NCBI GenBank assembly: GCA_949128115.1
Contig: OX421962.1
Span: 56,089,787 to 56,153,786 of the forward strand
Reading direction: 5' to 3'
From: Anaspis maculata
Taxonomy: Eukaryota > Arthropoda > Insecta > Coleoptera > Scraptiidae
Length of the DNA: 64,000 bases
The notes under the pieces: generated by a model
What the model was told of the DNA's origin: nothing
Databases searched by the model: none
Seen by the model: only the letters and a program-made list of their open reading frames with translations
Program-made: the position numbers and the translations under genes
Part shown: piece after piece, positions 1,581-59,800 of the stretch
Layout of the letters: every line of letters begins with the position of its first letter
How positions within the stretch are numbered: the first letter of the stretch is position 1

Positions 1581-4264
1581 CTACTCAGAGGCACCATCCG
1601 GCCCCAGAATCTCACGCTCCAACTTACCTCGGTGCATCCTATATGTATCGCATTTTTCCACCTCCCAAACCGCGTGATCGACATGTGGTGCTTTGGCAGC
1701 TCCCACTCTTACACAATTTGAACATCTAAGAGCCTCCGACTTACAATCCTCAACACGATGAGGCGCACCACAGCGGGGACATGACTGACTCTCACGGCAT
1801 GACGAAGACAAATGATTATACCCATTGCAGCGATAACACCTTATTATATCTATCGCGTTAAACACACGACATCTGTCAAGTCCAACAAGAACGTGCCGTG
1901 CTGCCACAGCCCTTCTGAAAGATACAACATCAAGCTGAATTGTTGCCTGATAAACACCAATATTCTTTTTTGTGGGATTATATTTGATTTTGATAACATG
2001 ACAACTGGATTCGCTCTCAAATATAAACTGCTAAACGAAAAATAAGGATATTGAAAATTGTTTCTCAAGTTCAAATAGAGATAACTCAAGGAAAAATTAC
2101 CCAATTCGAAAAAAAATCAACATTGCCTGATAGGACCATTCTTTGGCTACAAGGTGGTTTTATTAGTTTAATCATCCATTGCATTTTGCAAGATATACAG
2201 GGTGCCAAAGGAAGAGGTGAAAATCGGTGAATTTTCGAAGTCATCTACCTGCTTCAGAAAAAATGTCAGTTTTTTTCTGAGTCAATTTTTGGAAAGTCTG
2301 CGTCAAAATCTGTCGACTTATAGTAATTTTTTTATTCAGTTTTCTTTTTTTCAAAAATTTTAGAATTTTTTCATGAAATCGAAAAAATTCGATGTCGATT
2401 CTGCAAACGGCTTCTACTGAAATTTGGTAATAAGGTATTATTTCACTTATGTTTGTTTGAGAAATCTATAGCTGAAGAACACATGGGCCTAGAATCCAAA
2501 TTTGTTTTGAATCACAGGACAGAAGGCGCATACCCATATTCTCATAGCAAGGATGTTTCTCAGAGCAAACCCAACTGGGATGGAGGATGGTTTGGACATT
2601 TTCAATCAACAAACATTCTTATGCGTGCTGTCCAAAGGACAAGACAAATATGTCAAAAATTATACTGGTGATGGTTGAGAAGAAATTTATTGCAACAATA
2701 AACCCATACAATGAAAGAACATCAAACAATTAATAACTTGCATAATCGACTTCTCAAAATCGTAGCATTTTCGAAGGGATTTATTCGAGCACTGAACGAT
2801 AGAACGATTGCCTTGCAGTGCAGTTGTCTTTTGTCTTTGACTTGAGCCAGGTCTTCTAGCGACACCAGCAGTGTCCATGTTGTACTTCCATAAAAGTCTA
2901 GAACTAGAATCTAGAATCAGGCTTTGTGATGTTTCTCTGTCCTAACTATCCTGATCTGATAAATCCAACATGTAACAAAGTATTGACGGATACCTCCTTG
3001 GGAAGTCACTTGCATCGGTTGGTTTAATGATTCAATGAGACGGTTTGTGAAGTGAAATCATACTTTACTATCAAATTTCAGTAGAAGCCGTTTACAGAAT
3101 CGACATCAATTTTTATTTGATTTCATGAAAAAAAATCAAAACTTTTTGAAAAAAAAACCTGATTCAAAAAATTCACTATTTAGTTGACAGATTGATGCAG
3201 GCTTTCAAAAAATGAACTGAGAAAAAATCTGACATTTTTTCTAAAACAGGTAGACCACTTCGAAAATTCACTAATTTTCACCTCTTCCCTTGGCACCCTG
3301 TATATCTTGCAAAATGCGATGTATGATCAAACTAAGGACAGCACCTTGTAGCCAAAGAATAGTTCTATCAGGCAGTGTTGATTTTTTTCAAATTGGTCAA
3401 TTTTTCCTTCAGTTATCTTTATTTAAACTTGAGCGATAATTTTCAATATCCTTATTTTTCGTTGAGCAGTTTAGTTGGATTAGCCTTGACCAAGTAGGGA
3501 ATGACAAGGCTCTTATCAACGTCGCTGGACATGCCAACAACACGGATTCTTGGATGGAACTTTTTGGCCTCAGCAACATCATACTTCTCCGACAGCTTCT
3601 CAACAGCGATCTCTCTAAAGACTTTGGAATTTTGGCAATCCAGCACAAGTCCACCACTTCCTATCTCTCTAGCTGCCATAACCACTGCGCCCGATCCCAA
3701 TGTGTCAACGCTCTTCATTATTTCCGTTTTTGTGGTTGCATTGGACTGAGTCACATCTTTCGGCCTTATTATAATCTTTCCAGCAGTTTTACTGGGAGCA
3801 GCCCTTTCCGCGTAAGAAGCTGAAGGTGTCGTAACAGAAGTCGAACAAACCCGATTATCGGCTAGTAACGCACTAAGTTTTTCAATGTTATTCCGGAGCT
3901 CGCGATTTTCATCCCTCAACAACCGAAGTTCAGTCGCCAACGCCGAAGACTCAAAGTTACGCTCACTCTCGCACTTATTTGCAAAAAGTCGCTCAATCCT
4001 TACCTCAAGACTATCCTGCAAGTCTTTTTTCAGACTTTCAATTTTCTCGTCAAACAGGGAAACCCACTCGTTCTTCAGACCAACAGCGCATCGCACACGA
4101 CAAATGTCACACAAGTACAAGAAGCTCTTACGCCCGCTAATCAGCTTGTACTCAGCCTCACCAACCCCAACGCAGTTGTGGTGAAAGGAATCCCCACACG
4201 TGCCTTTGCACTGAATCATAGCCCCCTTGCTTCTACTAGTCCGGCACTTGGCGCAACTAGCCAT
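1581..4264 (-). pseudogene. non-LTR retrotransposon ORF1 (PHD-like finger, coiled coil, CCHC), split by an insertion
   Basis: The reading frame starts at ATG 4264. The first 60 residues hold a PHD-like zinc finger: CAKC, then CKGTC, FHHNC and CDIC. A long glutamate- and lysine-rich coiled coil follows (ESLKKDLQDSLEV, LRDENRELRNNIEKL), then the hinge SYAERAAPSKTAGKI and an RNA-binding-like segment. At 3471 the frame is cut by a 1446-bp inverted-repeat element. It resumes at 2023 and runs into gag-type knuckles: CYRCNGYNHLSSSC (C-x2-C-x4-H-x4-C) and CPRCGAPHRVEDC. PHD-plus-knuckle ORF1 proteins are typical of Jockey/CR1-like LINEs, where they bind the element's RNA. Removing the insert with one TA keeps the frame. 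No ORF2 follows on the minus strand, so the copy is 3'-truncated. The C-terminal end near 1581 is uncertain. Confidence 0.75.
2026..3471. mobile_element. 1446-bp inverted-repeat DNA transposon, TA target duplication, inside the LINE ORF1
   Basis: The termini are inverted repeats of about 415 bp (2026-2445 and 3052-3471) beginning AACTGCTMAACGAAAAATAA, flanked by TA at 2024-2025 and 3472-3473. Each arm also contains an internal TATACAGGGTGCCAA motif. The 600-bp middle has a short open frame (2453-2671) with no recognisable domain. The TA duplication suggests mobilisation by a Tc1/mariner-type transposase. The copy is non-autonomous. Confidence 0.8.
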
Positions 4265-5660
4265 ATTCAATATAGGTACTTATCTATAATAATTTCTTTA
4301 ACATGTGCGCAGGCAAAAGGCAAAGTAGTAAACAAAATAGTCGCAACAATAAAAACAATTGGGACGAATCAATAAGATAAAATGATAACCAGTTTCAAAA
4401 TCATGAATTGAGAGTGACTCAAATACGACGCAAACAAAATAGGCAGTTGTTCAGTAAATGCAAATGAAACCCGTGTATAAATAAAAACAAAGATAAGAAC
4501 AAAACAGTCAAAAAAAAACGTGAGTGCGTGACCATAGTCACCCTCGGAAGAAGTGAAACTTCTATACATATGAATCAATCAGCAAACAACGTTCGAAGAG
4601 GTGTTCTTTACGTACTCCCCATTCCCGCTCCGCTCCCTCACGGTTTGTATCATCTTGTTTTTCTTATTATCAATCTTATTATTATTATTATTATTAGTCA
4701 CTCAAAGAGCAGAGTACTTTCGACATGATTTTTTTACGATAAGACTTCTTTTATTTCTTTTCTCGCTGCGCTCGGCAGTGGAGAGCCCCACCAAATGCGG
4801 AAATGAAAAGAATCCTTCGAAATTCAACTTAATTATTATATTACCGCCCCTATGACTTGCCGCCTGTTGTACTCGCCTGCGCGCCGGAACGCACTGTACG
4901 CCTGCTAGGCCCGGCCCTGAATATACCTCCCTATCCCTATAATAAATCACATCCGCTCGAATCTATTCAAGCCAAATCGAGAGCCATTCTTGTCGGGCCA
5001 ACAGTACGACAACACGAAGAGCAGTCCAGTGTCGGCGATTAGTAAAAAATAGAACCGAACGCGGCGAACGCTGCAACAGCTTATTCTTTCATTTCCTGGG
5101 ACGACGCTGGTCACCCCAAGGTCAGACAAGACAACGTTACAGCACATCGTTACAGGCGTTCGTTACAACCACTGATGCTGATGTGTGGTTCTGCGTTAGT
5201 GGTGTGTTGTGATCTAGGCGCGAGAATAGAAGTTTCACTTCAATAAAACTTAGACGAATAAACGGTCAATAATAAAACAGTGGATAAATAACCAGAATTT
5301 GGGCGATGCGTCCCGCGCCGTGATGCCCGCACCAGCCGCGCCGTGATGCCCGCACCAGCGGCACCACGGCACAAAATGTAAATATTACCTCTGGGTAAGT
5401 TCAGCGTTATCAGCCAGAGAACAAAAAGTGTGGCCGAACAAAAACAAAAACGAATACACGGAACGGACTCACCAGACAGCAACAAACAGCAGCAAACCGG
5501 ACGCATGGACCACGAGGGCCAGCAAATCAGAGGTCACAACCCCCAAGCAGCCCCTGGGATCCACAATCACAATTAAAAAATCAAAGAACACGGCATCAAA
5601 CCAGTCGAATCACGGAGCACAAAATTTCATCAACTTGTGTGCGACCTCGCCGCATGGCGA
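4265..5660 (-). other. probable 5' untranslated region of the LINE, no gene seen
   Basis: This lies directly upstream of ORF1. 4280-4750 is AT-rich and includes a (TTA)n tract near 4675-4697. 4850-5560 is GC-richer than its surroundings, with a tandem pair of about 20 bp (CGCGCCGTGATGCCCGCACC) near 5308-5360. The GC-rich block would suit a LINE internal promoter region. The element's 5' end is not clear. Confidence 0.35.
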
Positions 5661-19800: not shown

Positions 19801-22800
19801 TATCCGGTTGTTTCTAAATTATTGAATTTCAAAGTTCTAGACTTTGATTTTGTTTTAAATTTGACATATAACAGATGTAGAAATACTCTCTACTGTTCTC
19901 ATCTGAATACAATTCTTCAGTGGCTTCCAAGTGAAATAATGCCAAATAATAATGATAGTGATAATTCGTTCAACAGATGACAGTCAATTTTCCAACAATT
20001 TTTTTCTCAGTTTCCCGGGAATCTCCCCATTGTAAATGTGAAATCAGCCTGGGCTATCGAGACCGAACTTGAATGATGGAGCTTGTAGCTGTATCTGTTG
20101 AATCCTTCACGCTTGAAAAAAATTCTTTAGTAGAGATCAAACATTTTAATTTTCTCCTGTTATGCAAAGAAACGCCCAATCACGAAGACAAATATTTTGC
20201 AAATACATTTTCCAAAGAAGTGGAATTTCAGTTCGTAGGTGAACCTGATGTTATGGCGAACTACTTGAGATAATTTTTGAATCGTCAAGTTGGATTATAC
20301 TCGTGAATAACAGAGCTATTATACAGGGTATTTGAACTTTTTATTACTTATTGGGGTGGAAAATTGAACTGAATATAAAGGCTCATGATAGAAATAGGCT
20401 CATAATTGCATGAATTTTATTTGAAGATGATTACTTAAACTTTATTCACGATAATGATAGCCCAATTTTTTTACTGCATTCGACTATTTGGTGTAGAGCA
20501 AAATAACCCTAAGACGCGTTTCCGTCATTCCGCACGAAGCCAGGCACATGGAAGTTGGATACCTTACAGTTTTCAAGTTTTAAATTTACGAAATTCAAAA
20601 AATCATGGAGATTTCCTTGATTCTCGGCCCTGTGTGGGTTCGAATCCTACTTCATCCATGGATATTTTGTGCTGTCCCCGAGGTTGCATGGTAGAGCAGC
20701 TTATAGCTGAATGCCGCCTCGTAAAATAAGACAATTAAATAAATAAATAAATAAAATTTTCGGGAAACCACTCCAGTTTATGATGTTGCGTGGCTACCAT
20801 AGCATCATTTGGGACAATTGAAAGAAATCGTGCAAGGATCCTACTGTTGAAAATTTGTATTTTTTAAATGAAGTTATCCGGTTTCAAAGTTCAACGTTTT
20901 CCGTTTTTTTTGAAAATTCGGATTTCGTGAACGGTCGAAGTAACTGACATCGTCTCTACTTTAGGTACCTGTGTGAAATTAAATGAAAAATCAACAAGTG
21001 GCCAGGGAGTTATGGAATTGAATTTATTTTAATTTTTTTTTCAATTGAAGTTTTTTGTGACTCTGCTGCCACTGATTAAATTTTGTTGAAATTGGACAGA
21101 CAATGTCCATTAGGTAAGTTATGGCAAGTTAAGGTCAGTTACTTCAACCGTCCACGAAATATACATTTTTAAAAATTGAAAAAGTTTTAACCGGATAATT
21201 CGTTTTGAAAATACAATCTTTCAAAAGCTATCATTGCTGGGACATTCCTTTATAACCTTTTATAACCAGACAACAAACACGCAAATAAAAATATTGCGCA
21301 TCTTTGGGCCATGAAGCGGGCACCTCGCATTTTGAATGAAACGAAGCTCTCCGACTACCACATCATTAGACAGTAGGACCGAAACTGCACAGACACGTGT
21401 TTCGCCCCTATTGTCGCCCCTATTGGGGGCTCATCAGTGTGAAGGCATTCAGTCAAACCATCCGATGCTGTGGCGGCCAGAGGCCAGAGATCTTATGGTA
21501 ATAGTCACCCAGGAGGACTCCTAATATGTGAGTCCTCCAAGCGGCGCCATCTATCAAAGGAATTCCGCAGATGCTATATTACAAGGCACCAGGCAGGCGA
21601 GGAAGTTGAACACAATTCCACGTAAAACCAACCGTCGCCAAGAGCATCAGTGGTAGGTGTACACATGTATACTCAAGCCGAGTAGAGCAATGTTAAAAGA
21701 CAACAAACACACAAATATAAATATTGCGCCTCTTTGGGCCATAAAGCGGGCACCTCGCATTTTTAATGTAACAAAGCTCTCCGACTACCACAACATCAGA
21801 CGGTCGGACCGAAACTGCACAGACACGTGTTTCGCCCCTATTGAGGGCTCATGAGTGCGCAGGCATTCAGTCAAACCATCTGATGCTGTGGCAGCTAGAG
21901 ATCTCATGGTAATATACTCCCAGGAGGACTCCTAACACCTTATAAGTACCTAGTACCTTTTATAACCAGTTTGACTTTTTACCCCAGGATTTCAAACACC
22001 TATATTATGGCTCGCACGAAGTTCATGAAACAATACATTTTTGTGTTTTCAGGTGGATTATCTTATCGGCAGGAAGCGTCTCGGTAAGCTACTTTGCGGG
22101 TTATTACGATGTCCCTGAGTTTGTATGTCAGACAGTTGTTCGGCAGTGAGTTGTCATGTCACTCCTGTCGTCCAAAGAGAGCCATAGACGATTTTTCTCC
22201 TACTAAAGTGCGCTGGCGTGGGTGAGGACCTCTAGGGATTTTATTTAGATTAACGTCCACCCAAGCTGAAAACTCGGTTGAAAAGTTTTGTCAATAACGG
22301 GTGTTTTTTTGAAATCTGGCGTCAAGCATGCTGTGCTCTGGCCGAATTAGGCTCTTTTCGGCTGGAGCATAGCATACTTGGACGCTAGATTTAAAAAAAA
22401 AAACACCCGTTACAGTCAAGTGTCATGATTGATTTGATTTTTTGATTTTTGAAATGACACTGACAGTGGGCTAGGTTGATAGGCTGATAAGAATGACAAG
22501 AGCTCGACGCCTGACGTAGTCCCTATAAGGTAACAGTGGTCCTTTGCCCATGTCGCGCCCTCTGCTATGGAACGCCGTCGTGGACATAATGAAATGTCAC
22601 CGAGAGATTACATTTTTGCACGCTTTGATGAAAATCACTCAACTTATTTATAAAATGTACAGATTTATAAACATATTTTGCGCTCATTTAAAACTATTCT
22701 GCACTTATTGACAGAAACAGAGGTAGTTTTGAAAGACTCGACGCAACAGCTATATAAAACCTCGACTGGAACGTTTCCATCAAATATTACTTGTGCCTGC

Positions 22801-25800
22801 CCGCCATTGCGGACAATATAAAAACCCTTGTGAAAAAATAATCCTCAATCTACTCTGATTGAAATTATTGGATTTATTTATACATTAGCCTTGTTATTTA
22901 TAGAAACTTTAGGACTTACTCTTTAAGTTACCCAAAACTTTTCACACTAACTCTAACCAAGTCATAAAAAAATAAATCTCTCAACATGCGACAAATAAAT
23001 CACTCACACGCACCGGTACACGTTGAGTGATTTATTTTCTAAGGAGCATCCGGCAACGCCGCAGGTTCGCATTGTTCTTTCAGTGCTTTCTCCTTCATTA
23101 CCCTTTTAGGGGAATTCTAAAATTCTTGCAGGTTTGTTGCTGTCACCTTCTTCGAGCATTTCCAGACAATTTTCGTGGTCCTCCAGGTCCTTGGACGTTT
23201 ACTACTGGCGACCAAAGTACGAAACTTTTGCAGGCCGGCTAAAATTGTTGCAACTCGGCACAACAGACCGTTACTATCACTTTCTTCGAGCATTTCCAGA
23301 CAAGTTTCGTGGTCCTCCAGGTCCTTGGAGGTTTGCTGCTGGCGACCAAAGTTCGAAACTTTTGCAGGTCGTTATACAGGCTGTTGCTGTCACCTTTTTC
23401 GAGCATTTCCAGACAATTTTCCTGGTTCTCCAGGTCCTTGGACGTTTGCTACTGGCGACCAAAGTACGAAACTTATGCAGGCCGGCAAAAACTCTTGCAG
23501 GTCGGTACACAGGCGTTGCTATCACCTACTTCGAGCATTTTCAGACAACTTTCGTGGTCCTCCAGGTACTTGGAGGTTTGCTGCTGGCGACCAAAGTACG
23601 AAACTTTTGCAGGTCGGCAAAAATGAACCATATAACGATAGCCCCCTGTACAGGATGTCCCGAAATTAATGCAACAAAATTTACAGGGAGGTAGAAAATT
23701 GAAAAATAAGGGGACTTCTTTAGTAAAAATACTCTCGCAAACGTAATAACGGAGATACAGGCCTTCAAGTTTGGTTTTTAAAAACAGTTTTTTTTCGCGT
23801 AACTTTTGAACCGTTGAGCCGATTTCATTCAAATTTAAACCGAAGTTTACTAAAATCTCTATCGAACAATGGTAACGCATTTCATCAAACATTTTCAGAA
23901 GCAAAGATAGTAGGGGGACCTTCCCCCTTTTTCCCCTCTTTTTACCCCCCTGAATAATTTTTAAAATGATTGCAATTTTTAAATTCTACGTTCAATTGAG
24001 AGAAAAAAGTTGCTCTTGCAAAATTTTGATTAAAGACTCCATTTTTGAGATATTTGGGTTTGAAACTTCGGAGAACATCTCGAAAACACCACTTCAAAGC
24101 CTTAAAAATTAAAATTCAAGAAAACTCAAGATTCTTCAACTGAAATGAATTTTCTAGGTGTTTTAAGTTGATAAACTACTATTTTTGCTAGAAAACATGG
24201 AGCTTTTCAGAAAAAAAAAATTTGGGCCCTGAAAAGTGGCGATTTTGAGATGTTTTCCCAAGTTTCAAACACAAATATCTCAAAAATGAAGCGTCTAGTC
24301 AAAATTTTGCAAGAGTAAATTTTTTCTTTCAATTGAACGTAGAATTCAAAAATTGCAACCATTTTGGAAATTATTCAGGAGGGTGAAAAATAGGGGGAAA
24401 AGGGGGAAAGTACCCCCTATTATCTTCGCCCCTGAAAATGTTCGATGAAATGCGTTATTATTCTTTAATAGAGACCTATTTTAGTAAACGTTGGTTCAAA
24501 TTTGAGTAAAATCAGTTCGAATGAAATTTGAAAAACGATTTTTGAAGGCCTGTATCTCCGCTATAACGTTTGCGAGGGTATTTTTATTGGAGAAGTACCC
24601 TTATTTTTCAATTGTCTACCTCCCTGTAAATTTTGTTGCATTAATTTCGAGACATCCTGTATACGTTTGAATCAAACTGTATTCAAATAGAAATGATCAC
24701 AGAGCAGTGAAATGTTCATACGTATTTTTTCAAACTAATAAGAAGATACGCTACAATCTATAGTTGAAACACTCCTAAGTTCACAAATTCAGATTTTTTT
24801 CTTTAATGTTTGCAGTTTTATTTCAGCATAAAGAGAAAATCGGAGGGGCCAGGCCAGGCCCCCCAAGGCTAAGATTGGGGGGGGGGGTATGACTTCCAAA
24901 TTTTAAATTGAATTATCACGTAAAACTACCCTTATTCTATGAGAGGGCGACTGGGATTTCTTGTGATAGATCATACACTCGCATACACTACTGTATGGGT
25001 ATACAATTTGCTATTGCTATCAAATCTTCAAGATTTCAGTGCCACTTCTTCTGCCTGGTCAGCAAGGAAATATGGTTGAATTATTGGAAAACAACGCCTT
25101 GTAGAGGAGGGTTGGAAAAATAGATCAATCAAAGGTTTTATTAATGCGTGGAATTCTACATTCATTGCACAATCGTCAGAAAAAGCGAGAGAGGTACTAT
25201 CAGATGTGGTAGTGAAGTGTCCAAGTCATCAAATTATTTTCTTCCACAGAATCTGAGGTATTACGAGCCCCGCCCCACATCAGTTGGCCCAGATGCGAAT
25301 ACTTCACTTTTACTTTTCACTTTTCACTTTTATCATCTAGATAAATACAGGGAGCCCCGGAGTTCAAGTGTGGAAACTTGTCAATCGATGAAGAATAAAA
25401 TAATAAGTAGAATGATCCGAAAACAATGTATTTCGGAAAAGTCAAATATCGGAGATACAGCCCTTCGAATTTGTGTTAGAAAATCGATTTTTTATCATAA
25501 CTTTGAAACTGTTCCACCGATAGTGCGGGAGCCCACTGCAAAATTCTGGGTCGATCGCTTTTATGAAGAATTTCTGTTTCAATCGATAGTGGGCAATACA
25601 ATGAATCTTCCGATACCCGACAGCCACCTTCCATCCCCTGCTATAAGAGTCGCCGCCGGTTTTAAAGATGCCCATTTTGAATCATTTTTTAACCTCTTGC
25701 TTATATAAAAAAATGTCACAATGATTGACAGAAGGCGAGATGGTCGAGTGGTCTAGGTAAAAGTAAACGAATTCAAAGGTCAGAGGTTCTAATCTCCGCG

Positions 25801-28800
25801 AATACTTTTTTTTTAATTCTTTTTTTTCGCATTTAAAAAGCTTGACTTACTTGAACTTTTCAAAATTGCGGAATTGAACGACGTTTCTTAATTTGGAGTA
25901 ACTTTCGTCGCTAAATTTATTAATGCTGCCGTTTTTTCCACACAAAAAATACGGCATTTCCTAGTATAGTGCTCTTTCTTCAAACGTGAGTGCCATGAAA
26001 ACCAGTGGAGTGTGGAGAATTGAAAAAAATAAGGGTTTCCTAAAATCAGGTGTGAAAATTTGTATCAGTATGTATTTCAAAATTTCAAAATCCGAAAAAC
26101 TCGATTTTTTTTTCAAAATTTTCATATATTTTTTGAAAAAAGACCCTCATTCTCTTGCCAGCTCAGATTTAAATGACTAATTTTTCTGTTACGTTTTTAG
26201 CTGCACAGATTTGGCAGTAACTCACGCCAAAAGAATCTATCTGTTGTTTCTCTTCCGCTCTGCAGCTGATCCGCAGTCTGTTTCAGCCGTTTTTTATGCT
26301 AGGAAATAACATCCTCAACTACTGAAAATGGTATCTTTGTATTAAACAGTGATATGTGTCTGTCAAGCTTTTAAAATGCAAAAAAAAAGAATAAAAAAAA
26401 AGGTATTCGCGGAGATTAGAACCTCTGACCTTTGAATTCGTTTACTTTTATCTATAGTACAAGAAAGATAGATTTCAACCTCGGAATAAATATGGACGTC
26501 GTGAAAATTTTATATTCTGTTCAGAATTGAGTGCTCTACAACATATCCAAAATCGCCAAAAATCGCACCCAGGGGTTTTGAGTTATTGGAAGGGGGGTAA
26601 AAAATTGTAACTTAAAATGGAGGGGATGAAGCCCGTCAATCAATTGGAAGCAAATACGTTATGATTCGACGCATCATATCCCGTTGATACCATTTTGGCA
26701 CAAAAAGTGTCGATTACTGTTGAAGGGGGGTCGTGGGGGGGCGAAGCTCTGCTAGGTGGTCCATTTTGTTTTTCTGGCCATGTAAAACCGATCACGACAA
26801 GTTTGGTATCTTTTCCAACTAAATTCAATCTCCTGAACTCGAATCCGATGTGTAAATTTTGATGAAAACAAGTTTGAAGAAGTTAACTTGAAAAAACTTG
26901 TTTTTTCTTTGACAATTTTGAAGAATTTTTTTTTCACTGTTAGAGGTATTCATCGTCCAAAAATTTTTAGGGGTCATTGGATTGAAGTGTATTCTTTACG
27001 AAAATCATCCACTTTATGTATAATTTTGATTCTCGAGTTCAAAAAATCGATTTAAACTCGAGCCGGCTCGGCGCGTCGTCTACTACTGACCAGAACACTA
27101 GAGCATGCACCTTTCAATGAAAATAGCTCAAACTTTCGAAGAGATAACAACTCATCTTTGGAAATTTGATTATATGTGCAGAATTGAATTCTCTATAACA
27201 TGAACAAAATCGCCATGAATCACACTGCAGGATTTTGAGTTATTCGAGGAGTAGGATAACATTTTCTCAAGATTCGTGCTCTATGAACTGTTAGCTCTCC
27301 CCTCAAATAACTCAAAACCCTGCAGTGCGATTCATGACGGTTTTGTTCATGTTATAGGGAACTCAATTCTGCACAGATAATCAAATTTTCAAAGATGAGT
27401 TGTTATCTCTTCTAAAGTTTGAGCTATTCTCATTTCAAGGTGCATGCTGTAGTGTTCTGGTCAGTAGTAGACAACGCGCCGAGCCGGCTCAAGTTCAAAT
27501 CGATTTTTTGAACTCGAGAAACAAAATTATACATTGAGTGGATGATTTTCGTGAAGAATACACTTCAATCTGATGACCCCTGGAAATTTTCCGAAGATGA
27601 ACACCTCTAACAGTAAAAAAAAAATCCGTCAAAATTGTCAAAGAAAAAACAAGTTTTTTCAAGTTAACTTGTTCAAACTTGTTTTCATCCAAATTTACAG
27701 ATCGGATTCGAGTTCAGGAGATTGAATTTAGTCGGAAAAGATACCAAACTTGTTGTGATCGGTTCTACATGGCCAGAAAAACAAAACGGACCACCTAGCA
27801 GAGCTTCGCCCCCCCACGACCCCCCTTCAACAGTAATTGACACTTTTTGTGTCAAAATGGTATCAACGGGATATAATGCGTCGAATCATAACGTATTTGC
27901 TTCTAATGGATTGACGAGTTTTATCCCCTCCATTCCAAGTTGCAATTTTTCACCCCCCCTCCAATAACTCAAAACCCCCGGGTGCGATTTTTGGCGATTT
28001 TGGATATGTTGTAGAGCACTCAATTCCGAACAGAATATCAAATTTTCAGGACGTCCATATTTTTTCCGAGGTTTTGCAGATTTTTTTACTATTTTTCCTG
28101 TACTACTAGACCACTCGACCATCTCGCCTTCTGTCAATCATTGTGACATTTTTTTATATAAGCAAGAGGTGTAAAAAATGATTCAAAATGGGCATCTTTA
28201 AAACCGGCGGCGACTCTTATAGCAGGGGATGGAAGGTGGCTGTCGGGTATCGGAAGATTCATCGTATTGCCCACTATCGATTGAAACAGAAATTCTTCAT
28301 AAAAGCGATCGACCCAGAATTTTGCAGTGGGCTCCCGGACTACGATTTTGCTCAACTCAAGAAGAGACATTTCTGACATAACCAACTATGCCTAGCATCC
28401 GAGTTAGCTGGAAAAAATCATTTGGGGAGGGGGTTCCATTTCATCACCAAATTCTCTACTGCGCAGGCGCCGGAGATTCAATCCTAGAATATGTTTAAAG
28501 GTACTTAGTCAGGGGGCATAGGGTCAAAAAAAGGTTGGCCGTGTGCAGCTTCGTGAAGATATATAGGGATATGTCCTAATCGATTTCTGGGCGATCAAGG
28601 ACCATGAAAAATTATGGTGGAATATTGACATCTGCTGCAAGCGAATATGGTGGAGGCGCCAAAATGGGCTCCATCTGATGATAAGAAACTGGCTGTAGCT
28701 CGTTTGTTTTTTAACGGATTTCAACATCTGAAACATCATTTTGTAGACAAAAAAATTCTCTTCTTATTTTATGCCTAAGTTTACAAACGTCATTCCGGGA

Positions 28801-31800
28801 AACTGTCAAAATTGTCTTCATAAGATATGCTAAATTCCGGCCTTTTTTCAAGGTTATCTGATATTTTTGAAACTTGGCAGTATTATAGATATTGAGGTGC
28901 CCTTTCCGAATTTTCACTTTTCCACTTCGTATATTTGCCGTTTTGGCCGCCATATTGGAAAGATGGCGCCCAAAAAACAGTTTTTTGTCAATATCTTCAT
29001 TTCAGTCAATGTGAGGTGGGAGCGTTTGTATGCGAATGAAAGCTTATTCAATTATCTACAATGTGACACCTTACTCGTGTACGTGCTATTTCCGGTTCTT
29101 GGGTTATGGCTTCCAGAGCTCCCTGAAGCATCAACTTTTGTCATCCAATCAGCATGTCAAGTTGAGCTTAGCTCCACGTGGCAGTCAAATTAACCATAAA
29201 TAATGATAAATTGTCAACCACAGACCATTAATATCCAGAAAATCAAGCATGGTAACGGTTGCTATGCAACTACAGGGTGAACTCTAAGGGAAAATTAACT
29301 TTGAGAAGGTATAGCTTGAGAACTGTAAGTCGCACATGAGTGATTCAGACGTCAAATTATAGACAATTTGATAGACCTTCACTTTTGATCTGAATTCTCA
29401 AGTTTTATGACAAATTTTCGAAAAAAAATCGAAAATATGTTTTTTTGGGCGCCATTTTTTCAAAATTATCGCCAGAACAGCAAAGATACGAAGTGGAACA
29501 GTGGATATTCTGAATGATGACCCCAAATCTCATCATAATAATAAGTTTCGAATGTATCTGATATCCTTCAAATGCTATTTCACTTTTATTTCTTTCTAAA
29601 GTCAGTTTGCTTTCACAGTTCACCCTGTAATTACACAAATAACATCACCATGATCGATTTTCTAAATTTTTATCAGCTATGATTAATGGCCAAGAGCTAT
29701 TGATGGGTTATTTGCCTACTACATGACGATGGTATCAATTTAACATGCTGATTGAATGCCGAAAGTTGATGCTTCCGGAAGTTCTGAAAGCTCTAACTCA
29801 AGAACCGTAAATTGCACAATAATGACTGATATGTCAAATTGTAGAGATTGGAATGGGCTTTTCTTCGCATACACACATTTCAATCTTGAGTCAGTTGAAT
29901 TCAAGATATTGACAAAAAACTGTTTTTTGGGCGCCATCTTTTCAATATGGCGGCCAAAACGGCAAAGATACGAAGTGGAAATGTAAAAATTCTAAAAGAG
30001 CACTTCAAGATCTATGATACTGCCAGGTTTCAAAAATATCGGATAACCTTCAAAAAAGGGCGGAATTTAGCATGACTTATAAATACAGATTTGACAGTTT
30101 CACGAAATGACGTTTGTAAATTTAGGTATGAAATCAGAAGAGAATTTTTTTGTCTACAAAATGACGTCCCAGATGTTGACATCCGTTGGAAAACAAACGA
30201 GCTACAGCCAGTTTCTTATCACCAGATGAAGCCCATTTTGGCGCCTCCACCATATTCGCCTGCAGTGGATACGAATATTCCACCATCATTTTTCATGGTC
30301 CTTGACCCCCCAGGAATCGACTAAGACATATCCCTATATATCTTCACGAAGCTGCACACGGCACGACCTATGCCCCCATACTAACTAACCTGTCGTGACA
30401 TGAACAAAAAACAATATTTAAAAAAATATTGACCGAGATATTGACATTCTGATCATTGATTTTCTAGAAATCGCATTTTTACTGATGGGCCAACTGATGT
30501 GGGACGGGGCTCGTATTCCCTTGAGCACATGTTGTAATTGTATTTTGCTTTGAGAAAATGGAATCTTCCTTTTAATGTGAGCCTGAAATAAGCTTTCGTT
30601 ATTTCTTATAAAAAGTGATCGACTTGAGTTCGATCTCGAATTCGATTATAGGCTATTCTAATTAAACAGCCAACTGAACCCGTGAGCCTGTATATTTGAA
30701 GACCTGCGCACAAGCTGCGAGCAAAAGGTATCGCCTATATGAGAGAGAGACGAACATTATGAACATTGCGGAGATTTTCCGTTAAGAACACTGCAAACAT
30801 TTTATTTCATTTGGAGTTATTGTGTTACACTAACTAATCCCGTTATTGGCTGTCAACCTAGGGGACATAAAAAGTTATCTGGAAGTGCTCGAAGTAGGTG
30901 ATAATAACGGCCTTTATACCGAACAGCACGAATTTTTGATGGCCTGCAAAAGTTTCGAGCTTTGGTCGCCAGCAGCAAGCCTCCAAGGACCTGGAGGACC
31001 ACGAAAGTTGTCTGGAAGTGCTCGAAGTAGGTGATAGTAACGGCCTGTATACCGACATGCAAAAGTTTCGTACTTTGGTCGCCAGCAGCAAACCTCCAAG
31101 GACCTGGAGGACCACGAAAATTGTCTGAAAATGCTTGAAGAAGGTGATAGTAACGGTCTGTTGTGCCGAGTTGCAAGAATTTTAGCCGGCCTGCAAAAGT
31201 TTCGTACTTTGGTCGCCAGTAGTGAACGTCCAAGGACCTGGAGGACCACGAAAATTGTCTGGAAATGCTCGAAGAAGGTGACAGCAACAAACCTGCAAGA
31301 ATTTTTGCCGACTTGAATTTTAGAATTCCCCTGGAAGGGTAATAAAGGAGAAATCACTAAACGAACAATGCGAACCTGCGGTGTTGCCGGATGCTCCTCA
31401 GAAAATAAATCACTCAACGTGTACCGGTGCGTGTGAGTGATTTATTTGTCGCATGTTGAGAGATTTATTTTTTTATGATTTGGTTAGAGTTGGTGTGAAA
31501 AGTTTTGGGTAACTTATAGAGTAAGTCCTAAAGTTTCTATAAATAACAAGGCAAATGTATAAATAAATCCAATAATTTCAATCAGAGTAGATCGAGGATT
31601 ATTATTTCATAGGGGTTTTTATATTGTCCGCAATGGCGCGCAGGCACAAGTAATATTTGATGGAAACGTTTCAGTCGAGGTTTGATATGGCTGTTGCGCC
31701 GAGTCTTTTAAAACTACCCCTGTTTCTGTCAATAAGTGCAGAATAGTTTTAAATAAGCGCAAAACATGTTTATAAATCTGTACATTTTATAAATAACTTG

Positions 31801-34800
31801 TGTGATTTTCATCAAAGTCTGCAAAAATTAAATCTCTCGGTGACATTTCATTATGTCCACGACGGCGTTCCATACTCTGCAATGTGGTTGTGAGAATATG
31901 TATCGTGGGTCGTAAAGTTGACTCTGAACTCCTCAAAGTACTTCTGCGGTAACGAAATTTTCTTTTAAATTACCATGGATACCCAAACCTATATTGTTTT
32001 CTTCAACTGGAAATTTTTCGTTTTCCAATCAGTTCTTGTTATGTAAATTAATATTGTTTGTGAATGAATGAATATTCTTCCGAATAAAAAAAATAATATA
32101 GTCGAACCTAAGTTTTTATCTCCGTTGAATAAATTCTCAAAATGGTAGTACGACCTCTGGATGTCGTACTCAATCTTTGGATTAACCAGCTCCAAATACT
32201 GCTCGCCTTTCTTGTCCACCAATTCGTAATCGAAAATATAGTCGAAGGTGCTGTCAACTGGAAGAATAAAAATAAATATTTGTTACTAGACAATTACAAC
32301 ATGATCAAGTATAGAAGATTTACCACACGTAATGTTTGCTGGACCTTTTCCCTGAATCGGTAAAACTAGGACTTTGCCGGAGATCTCGTAGTCGGCTAGA
32401 AGGACTATGTGATGACTGAAGACTACAACTCTTCCGTGCTTTTTTTCAAAGTCTAGGCTGGAATATTTTCGTGAGTAAGGTTTCCCTCGGGATCAAAAAA
32501 AAACTCACTCAATGTCCTTCACGATCATGGTTTCCAACCCTTCTAGTGTGCAGTCGGTCAGTTTCACATTCAAATTTTGGCTGGCGTGGATGTCGATTAG
32601 AGGCAATTTGAGGGGGTCCACTGAAGGTGTGTGGAACTGCCTATCCCCTGAAAAAAAAATCAAATCAAGGTGATTCTTCCATTCGGAAAATTTTCGAAGT
32701 CTCATCTTTGACATTTAAAGATATATCATCATAGGAAATGCAATACCCATTTACATAGTGTCAAGGTGAGCGTCTGTCTTTTATGTCTCTCGGTTTTTTA
32801 CATTTACTCAGAACTCTATACTTCTTACTCTATGGAAAATATAGAGGTATAGGAAATACTAATAACTTATTATGATTTTACAGACGAATGAGTTCCATGA
32901 AAAAATGGTCAAAATACTTTTTAGGAAAATATCCAGAAACGTAGGTGAGTTTTGGTTCAAGATAAGTATCCCTCTAGGATGAAGATCGGAGCCAGATTGA
33001 TCAACTGAAAAAAATAACTATCTAGTAGTTTGAGTATCCTGAAAGACGAACTTGCGTCTTTCTACCGTTATTAAAAAACGCCGTATCTACCAAAAAAGAA
33101 ATCATCGACTTTTACAACTTCCTCTTTTAATATTGGGTCTTATTACGGTGCCTTTTGTAAATAAGACAATATTGTAGCAACAACAATTTTGTCAAGGTGA
33201 CGAATCACAACAGCGCCGAAACCGGCAACCAGCAACCTGCTTTCATTGTGTTTTCGGCCTCACGCATGAAATGTGCATGTCCAAACTTCTACACTAACGT
33301 TAGCATTGCTATTAAAGTTCTATGTAAATGAACCATTAGCCTTTTACCAGTTGAACTAAAACTAATTCTTATCACCAACTTCAACTAGTATCTTGAGAAC
33401 TAAATCATGTTCCTATGTTAAAGTAATTACCAAATTTTACCGTGGGTTCCACAAAAGAGATAGTACGATAATACGAGATCAGTTGATTCGCGATTTTTGT
33501 TTGTCAATTTGTAGCTCAATGATCAATGGAAATGCTGGTTCATCTGTCAATAGTGAAAAGATAATGGGTCTAGTTTTAGGAATTTTTATGGTTAATCGAC
33601 TAGCATGCAGCAGAAAAAAGTTTAGTTAATCTGCAATCAGCCTGATTGCTGATCATCTTTTTTTTGTGGAACTGACGGTAAGTCATATTATTATAGTATC
33701 TTTTAATTTTTAATGTCTAAGGGGATCTAGGAAAATTATTCGCGGAGTAGGCTTAGAGGATGGGTCAGGTATTTAGATCTTTACATGTATTATATATATT
33801 TATATTCCATACCTTCTACACATTTTACATTATCCTTTATTCATTTTATATAATTTTGTAATTTCCTTCACGAATGAAAATTGTTGATTTGAAAAAAAAA
33901 TAATGTCTTCTTCCTCTTTATCCAACAAGAAATTTCAACATTATACATACATTACATACATACAAACATTCTGCTCACGAAAATACTTGACCATAGGTGG
34001 TATGAGTACCTACGTGCTAAAATTGTAATTGAGATTTGCGAGTTTGCGACTAGTCCCAGTTTGAAATAAAAATTAGGCTCCTAGCGAGGTATCGAACACC
34101 TAAGTCATGTAATGTACTAAGTTCACAAAAGATTGAGTATCAAAAACAGTACCTACCGATTTAATAATAAAAAAAAAAAAAAAAAAAATAAGGTTCAATT
34201 ATTCACACTACAATACTAACGCTAAGTAGTCGATCCACGTATGAAGAACACGTGCATCCAATCTGCCACGTAAAAAATATACTGCGTTCTTCTCTTCTCT
34301 GACCCACTGTGAATACACACAGAACACGTGATATTTTTATTGTTTCTAGTCCTTTAGTATTTTTTTTTTGTAATCACATGACTCACTAAGCTATCGATAA
34401 AAACATACTATGACTAGGACAGCAAGTAGTGAAAAAAGCACAATAATAGCACCGTTCAGTGAATTTTTTTTTGGCTCACGATAAATTTGAGAATAAATCG
34501 ACCGTATTCCCTTAATATTGAAAAGAAATTTGAGCATTGATGCTTTTGAAATGTTTTTCACTTACTAGAATACAATTTTACCAGTTCCAGCAACTGGACC
34601 CCTTCCCTAAAGTCCCTAAATTCGGGACTCTTCACTCTCTCCTCATGTCCTATGAAACTGCTAGTGACATATTACTGATGTAACTGATATAGTCCGGTGG
34701 ATTAGCGCCTAAACTATGCATTTTGCGATAAAGCAAAGGGTTTCTGGATTTACATTATCAAGACTTGACAATCCCAGAAATAGCGCCAATGAGCATTGGG

Positions 34801-56454: not shown

Positions 56455-56625
56455 TTGCATTGACTTCTACTAACTTCCACTGACTTCCACCAACTTCCGG
56501 AAGACTTCCACTGACTTCCGCTGACTTCCACCAACTTCCACTAACTTCCAGAAGACTTCCACTGACTTCCACGAACTTCCAAGACTTCCATGAACTTCTA
56601 CGCACTTCCGCGAACTTCCATTTTT
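56455..56625 (+). repeat. minisatellite, unit about 10-11 bp (ACTTCCACTG)
   Basis: About 15 imperfect units of ACTTCCRCTG/ACTTCCACGA with occasional GAAG spacers. Open frames through it (VEVSGS-type repeats on the minus strand) are a by-product of the repeat. Confidence 0.9.
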
Positions 56626-59629: not shown

Positions 59630-59800
59630 TCCAAAGACTTCCACTAACTTCCAGTAACTTCCACGCACTTCCGAAAGACTTCCATTGACTTCCACTGACT
59701 TCCACGAACTTCCTCTGACTTCCACTAACTTCCATCAACTTCCTCGCACTTCCAAAAGACTTCCATTGACTTCCACGGACTTCCACGAACTTCTGAGCAT
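59630..59800 (+). repeat. second minisatellite of the ACTTCCACTG type
   Basis: About 15 units related to 56455-56625, in the same orientation. TTTGTACACCAAACTTCC lies beside both arrays and GCGGTTCGCCCCTCG flanks them in opposite orientation. Confidence 0.9.

Follow-up and report, generated by a model that had tools for sequence, protein, structure and literature searches.

Background

The closest described systems are the non-LTR retrozymes of metazoans, which are non-coding tandem repeats of a few hundred bp (ca. 150-450) that carry a type I hammerhead ribozyme, have a GC content below 50% and are flanked by target-site duplications (TSDs) of more than 4 bp (Cervera and de la Pena 2020, PMC7229834). 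Their expression and their circles have been shown in other animals, retrozyme-like repeats have been reported for insects in general, and the helper is left open among LINEs, Penelope elements and others, with Penelope elements as a strong candidate (PMC7229834). According to a review, retrozyme repeats hold no motif that would reveal this helper (PMC7761336). Plant LTR retrozymes are likewise non-coding, non-autonomous and equipped with a hammerhead (PMC4918200), and differ by a type III ribozyme, by LTR, PBS and PPT and by a 4-bp TSD (PMC7229834, PMC7761336). Another insect tandem repeat with a hammerhead, pDo500 of Dolichopoda crickets, has been described as a satellite (PMC2837043) and is compared here by its description only.

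Penelope-like elements form the second point of comparison. In Anolis, the Penelope protein was found to cut the two strands of the target, to extend each of them and to use two adjacent internal start sites, the interval between these corresponding to the genomic "tail"; in vitro, no difference in start site was seen between the strands and ribozyme cutting was not needed (Frangieh et al. 2024, PMC11167929). In Adineta, head-to-head copies with a 31-bp tail, optionally present on one inverted pLTR, were described in 2013, with self-priming as the proposed origin, the formation of such inverted copies being still given as unsettled (PMC3846280).

The element described here was found in a 64,000-nt stretch of Anaspis maculata DNA (hereafter the window). 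Contig C50 of the genome (16,310 bp) is taken to be mitochondrial, as its first 2,500 bases code for COX3 and, in our own reading, for ATP6 and ND3-like proteins; its COX3 shows 96% identity to Anaspis sp. and 95% to Scraptia sp., Anaspis being a genus of scraptiid beetles. By the sequence features tested it fits with the metazoan non-LTR retrozymes, and we consider it highly probable that it is an old insertion of this kind, integrated by a Penelope-like machinery combining GIY-YIG and reverse transcriptase (RT) domains. The present retrozyme family forms head-to-head arrays with one end of each of two kinds (A and B, see below), which are not described for metazoan retrozymes in the main text of PMC7229834. 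A search of main texts, with most subscription papers and supplements lying outside it, returned no report of head-to-head retrozyme arrays, nor did we find literature combining "Penelope-like element" with "twin priming"; the insertion signature is, as far as found, new. The review and the study of metazoan retrozymes cited above are, we take it, of overlapping authorship. Dozens of insertions, many of them young and TSD-flanked, are available, and their end structure joins the question of the retrozyme helper to that of the inverted Penelope copies.

A tandem hammerhead insertion in the window

A perfect direct repeat flanks the insertion (Table 1) and sets its two ends where the sequence-only reading had placed them. 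That reading had also described two tandem direct units of ca. 430 bp on the minus strand, and direct-repeat alignment confirms them: between 21268 and 21935, repeat blocks show 92% identity over 146 nt at a spacing of 430, 90% over 69 nt at 418 and 88% over 42 nt at 411. Since the units lie ca. 8-12% apart over the aligned blocks, the insertion is old. It is a non-coding retroelement, as had been proposed: a TSD is present and, in the ORF list of the window, no frame of at least 130 aa overlaps it, so that no ORF with RT and GIY-YIG occurs there. The filler at the 5' junction is similar, by eye, to the neighbouring target sequence, and among the matches listed in a genome search with the element no other reached query positions 1-18. 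On these comparisons, and on those with the other sites given below, the window copy is an old, decaying member of an abundant family that also has young copies.

Table 1. Positions of the features of the insertion and of the Penelope-type pairs
Feature	Position	Strand	Description and basis
Whole retrozyme insertion	21270..21954	minus	685 bp, ca. 1.55 units, non-coding; direct repeats, flanking TSD, genome matches
Target-site duplication, 15 bp, ACCTTTTATAACCAG	left 21255..21269, right 21955..21969		perfect repeat
Unit copy A, full	21270..21697	minus	direct-repeat comparison
Unit copy B, 5'-truncated	21698..21935	minus	direct-repeat comparison
Filler at 5' junction, 19 nt, outside repeat unit	21936..21954	minus	unit similarity stops at 21935
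Insertion 3' terminus, "B" end, unit phase ca. 127	21270..21275	minus	
Type I hammerhead, copy A, intact core	21382..21446	minus	predicted cleavage 3' of C at 21392; sequence, Rfam sub-threshold
Type I hammerhead, copy B, broken core	21812..21870	minus	G5>C at 21853; sequence, Rfam sub-threshold
Tandem 12-nt duplication, stem II/loop II region of copy A	21402..21425	minus	sequence
L065-type head-to-head pairs	C5:2421863, C3:86438355, C3:33626699, C6:7878013, C4:38351625		one end of each kind

Hammerhead ribozymes of the two units

Read on the minus strand, each unit displays in order stem I, core, stem II, GAAA, stem III and a GUC cleavage triplet. This is the type I layout expected from the sequence-only reading, including a palindromic stem III, which in the window units is a loopless ACAC/GTGT (ACAC/GUGU in RNA). 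Copy A has every core base, as had been stated, with CTGATGAG at 21430-21437, GAAA at 21400-21403 and the cleavage C at 21392. The core of copy B (21848-21855) reads CTCATGAG and indeed departs by the single G5>C change, which in an insertion of this age is most simply explained by decay. The core of another site, L009, is broken by the same change, either by chance or as an inherited dead variant.

Copy A further carries a tandem duplication of 12 nt (Table 1), found in only one of the 157 ribozyme units tabulated, which yields two competing stem II pairings. The stem II initially described for this copy, GCCCC/GGGGC closing an enlarged loop, corresponds to one of these two folds, whereas the minimum-energy fold pairs the nearer GGGGC into a short hairpin. 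Because of this insertion in stem II, the activity of the "intact" ribozyme of copy A is doubtful.

At gathering thresholds, Rfam detected no hammerhead in the window. Both copies were matched below these thresholds in an 801-base search, copy A by Hammerhead_1 (25.2 bits, gathering 34, E 0.0011) and copy B by HH9 (25.9 bits, gathering 52, E 4.8e-4), so that the lack of a covariance-model hit, which had been named as an argument against the reading, holds only formally. A canonical unit from elsewhere in the genome also remained under the gathering score of 34 for Hammerhead_1, with 25.6 bits, and 27 kb from six family loci gave no Rfam hammerhead at E up to 0.01. Minimum-energy folding of three stretches did not return the full hammerhead junction. 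Strong folding was computed for a rod of ca. 40 bp by which stem I would be lengthened (-60.7 kcal/mol in one copy), with a z of -6.69 for copy B but of -1.21 for copy A and -0.21 for a 65-nt canonical stretch, and the covariation of this rod among 65 distinct copies was not above that of shuffles (pairing 2218 vs a shuffle mean of 2213.5 and maximum of 2224).

A dispersed family in the genome

The genome (757.8 Mb, 50 contigs) was searched with the window element, and the best 40 of 1602 candidates, once scored, gave at least 119 matches (the element included) at at least 40 sites, in agreement with the further tandem copies that had been anticipated. The DNA of all 40 sites was analysed; these are the best-scoring sites rather than a random sample and are dispersed over seven of the 50 contigs. 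Among their 157 full units, 148 have a ribozyme that is intact by pattern and 123 are identical. The reference unit, taken from L033, measures 419 nt with a GC content of 0.484 (48.4%). The sequence-only reading had raised the possibility of an undescribed retrozyme family: the sequence family is indeed unreported in the literature searched, but since retrozyme-like insect repeats are already known (PMC7229834), it is the family that is new and not its kind.

Genome-wide, the core pattern occurs 1,309 times (661 + 648, a count in which a small number of matches overlap and some others are unlikely) vs 6 times (3 + 3) for the reversed pattern, which indicates that the hammerhead core is present more often than by chance. 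About 100 of these places, all on contig C1, were listed and fall into several families, which differ in the arms of stem II (e.g. GCCCC/GGGGC, GACC/GGTC and GTCCC/GGGAC). Compensation in stem II was seen for 62 distinct strings from this C1 listing, a set mixing several related families, with 3.42 of 4 positions paired vs 2.94 on average, and 3.18 at most, when partners were shuffled 1000 times; a set reduced by hand to 54 strings gave 3.54 vs 3.01. For nine old sites, conservation of the ribozyme was not significant when measured by majority differences (1/47 vs 31/372, p 0.24), and private changes amounted to 4.9% vs 8.4% (p 0.0008).

A second dispersed hammerhead family, older and with a GACC/GGTC stem II, was observed at positions 209-401 of L070 (C1:22915350-22915850). 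It includes several head-to-head pairs, and an upstream edge 34 nt before the core is common to many of its 51 matches, its ends being blurred by divergence.

Insertion ends and array structure

Phases were counted from the first base 3' of the cleavage site in the 419-nt unit. The 40 sites comprise 26 head-to-head arrays and 14 one-sided insertions, the head-to-head order being always minus-sense then plus-sense (reverse order in 0/40 sites). When outer ends were classified by hand into bins chosen after seeing the data, 59 of 66 fell into two of them, 30 at phase 50-70 (A) and 29 at phase 118-148 (B), with 7 elsewhere; the preferred end points lie 59 nt and ca. 132 nt past the cleavage site, 73 nt apart. 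All 20 head-to-head arrays with both ends binned have one A and one B (two-sided binomial 1.9e-6), the other six (L031, L043, L045, L047, L049 and L060) having at least one end outside the bins. A second search with a canonical query, for which the best 40 of 1565 candidates were scored, added at least 10 sites whose ends were taken from coordinates. Five of the six head-to-head arrays among these 10 have both ends binned and are all A/B (5/5), the sixth has an end outside the bins, and the four apparently one-sided sites are all B-ended. We read these two-ended head-to-head arrays, which are invisible from one window, as the signature of Penelope integration.

Repeats of at least 10 bp flank 26 of the 40 sites, vs 6 of 1560 mismatched flank pairs. 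The 25 TSDs tabulated range from 10 to 15 bp, with 23 of 12-15 bp and 12 of exactly 12 bp, and average 80% AT vs 57% in the loci; an AT-rich target is also reported for Penelope-like elements (PMC11167929, PMC3846280). The 15 sites left out of this table are 13 without a clear repeat and two (L055 and L059) set aside for repetitive sequence, although L059 and possibly L055 count among the 26 sites with flank repeats.

In 17 of the 26 head-to-head arrays, 1-35 nt of filler separate the two arms. Arms reach 5,176 nt and up to ca. 12 units, without coding sequence. Arms were compared by their majority sequences in 22 arrays (L031, L043, L047 and L049 omitted; the differences in L035 and L061 lying mainly at alignment edges). 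In 10 of these arrays the two arms do not differ over the stretch they share; in 13 neither arm has a closer match than its partner, and in 9 another arm comes closer than the partner does. The clearest arrays are homogeneous, with 0.06% difference within arms vs 1.04% to the nearest other site in L033 and 0.13% vs 0.63% in L045. When the mean difference within arms was set against the difference to the nearest other site, 16 of 38 sites had the smaller value within arms, 3 had equal values and 19 had the larger value within arms, with old and recent insertions among them. Given this mixed identity within arrays, a single template per insertion is supported for the clearest arrays only; the data fit one RNA template copied through many rounds in some insertions, with which a linear multimer would also be compatible.

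In the largest array, L045, ca. 750 nt of the left arm (2533-3280) are unlike the unit and perhaps correspond to a later insertion. A near-palindromic head-to-head junction (L037, 2311-2432) scores in Rfam, below gathering, as microRNA-precursor-like hairpins, and head-to-head arrays could give double-stranded RNA.

A resident Penelope-like element

A GIY-YIG search of the genome gave 29 matches. At one locus, L065, an uninterrupted frame of 848 aa has a GIY-YIG domain above the Pfam cut-off and an RVT_1 match below it (E 4.3e-5), lies between direct repeats of 112 bp (pLTRs, 97%) and is preceded by a head-to-head piece; based on this domain order and structure, it is called Penelope-like. Its pLTR contains GAAACGTT without a standard core (by eye), perhaps a ribozyme relic, and no hammerhead was among the Rfam matches.

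The pLTR and ORF start of L065 were used to search the genome, and the best 40 of 197 candidates scored gave at least 45 matches. Among the 45 listed, 36 end at query positions 165-178, 5 at 123-128 and 4 continue to 398 or 401, so that copies of this element have two end points 40 nt apart. Each of the five head-to-head pairs listed (5/5; Table 1) has one end of each kind. On this evidence the Penelope tail, here of 40 nt, follows the same one-A-one-B rule as the retrozyme; the interval is 73 nt in the latter and 30-40 nt in the literature. The layout of two start sites downstream of a hammerhead is shared with Poseidon of Anolis (PMC11167929), while the one-end tail in head-to-head copies, the tandem copies and the TSD are shared with Adineta Penelope (PMC3846280). 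Unlike Penelope-like elements, the retrozyme unit has no ORF.

Proposed integration and alternatives

Starting from what is read directly (the unit, its core, the TSDs, the two ends, the A/B pairing, the rule for the resident element and arms that exceed one unit), we infer RNA cleavage, circularisation, the enzyme, the use of a single circle as template and a partner among Penelope families. A non-autonomous element of ca. 420-430 nt would be transcribed and cut at every unit by its type I hammerhead, probably as dimers because stem III is loopless and palindromic, and would then circularise. Both strands of an AT-rich target would be cut ca. 12-15 bp apart, and each free 3' end would prime reverse transcription inside the RNA, one at A (ca. 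59 nt past the cut) and the other at B (ca. 132). The polymerase would proceed round a circular or multimeric template, sometimes for many units, and the two antisense cDNAs would be joined at random 5' ends, often with a short filler, producing head-to-head arrays; one-sided events would leave tandem inserts like the window copy. In this model a Penelope-type machinery would prime on both target strands. Points against it are the unequal A-B intervals, the head-to-head arrays with an end outside the bins, the mixed identity within arrays, the sub-threshold covariance scores, the lack of covariation above shuffles in the rod, and the Anolis results on start sites and ribozyme cutting (PMC11167929).

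Alternatively, a single cDNA or antisense template might fold back and prime itself, so that head-to-head arrays would form without two primers; this mechanism has been put forward for the Adineta Penelope elements (PMC3846280). Such a process predicts equal phases at the junction of the two arms. The phases do lie within 15 nt of each other at 3 of 26 junctions, but 1.9 such near matches are expected by chance and the other 23 differ by more than 15 nt, which argues against self-priming for this retrozyme family; one-A/one-B outer ends would also be left unexplained, and we regard fold-back as quite unlikely. Twin priming, in which inverted 5' parts are produced, is the variant to be considered if the units were mobilised by LINEs through ordinary target-primed reverse transcription. 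LINEs are probably present, as two window ORFs (1581-4279) resemble, in our own reading, LINE ORF1. This explanation nevertheless appears very unlikely: the 66 outer ends, inspected by eye, as a rule bear no poly(A) or simple-repeat tail, both outer ends of head-to-head arrays are 3' ends of the element at two internal sites, and the resident Penelope-like element obeys the same end rule. A DNA transposon with inverted ends built of repeats was also considered and is disfavoured because the outer ends are asymmetric.

The units might also derive from the pLTR of an autonomous Penelope element as 5'-truncated fragments, in which case no independent retrozyme family would exist. The shared layout, a ribozyme followed by two start sites, and the occurrence of such a ribozyme in a Penelope element (PMC11167929) speak for this possibility, which we hold to be unlikely: none of the 40 retrozyme sites lies within 487 kb of any of the 69 Penelope matches listed, the long arms lack coding sequence, and the retrozyme unit showed no sequence similarity to the Penelope stretches compared, namely a locus of 4 kb and four 3' flanks of 501 bp (L066 and L067 belonging to a common family, L068 and L069 giving no information). 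The distance and the lack of similarity also count against the Penelope model itself, as they point to no partner family. Ordinary satellite DNA that expanded through unequal exchange or via circular DNA and carried the hammerhead as a passenger would agree with units that are tandem and partly homogeneous, and cave crickets are known to have hammerhead satellites (PMC2837043); set against dispersed sites, TSDs, preferred 3' ends and variable 5' ends, this origin seems scarcely credible.

For the preferred reading, integration by Penelope-type enzymes, a broader version can be formulated on which we are evenly divided. One-A-one-B would be a general law of Penelope-type integration, in which the complex offers a pair of neighbouring start sites on a single RNA circle to the cut strands of the target, one site for each, leaving a tail on exactly one end of every two-sided insertion; retrozymes would be minimal RNA circles that keep a ribozyme and two docking sites and use Penelope enzymes in trans. 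If true, each target strand would receive one start site, which is a sharp prediction.

Neighbourhood of the insertion

Beside the retrozyme, window positions 20844-21227 hold imperfect inverted repeats (42 nt at 83% and 29 nt at 79%), possibly a MITE. Further on, a stretch of ca. 9.3 kb (22566-31874) has at its borders inverted repeats, one of 560 nt (94%) and one of 396 nt (92%), which contain tandem repeats of ca. 113-132 bp; with nested inverted repeats at 26477-28073 and 28538-30362, the stretch resembles a large transposon of the fold-back or long-TIR kind. The two ORFs at 1581-4279, on the minus strand, differ in their motifs, one having a zinc-knuckle-like motif (by eye) and the other a PHD finger, the sole Pfam match over cut-off for this pair; the PHD-finger ORF has only two database relatives. 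Finally, two arrays of a ca. 10-bp GACTTCCACT-like repeat occur on the same strand ca. 3 kb apart, at 56461-56620 and 59636-59793.
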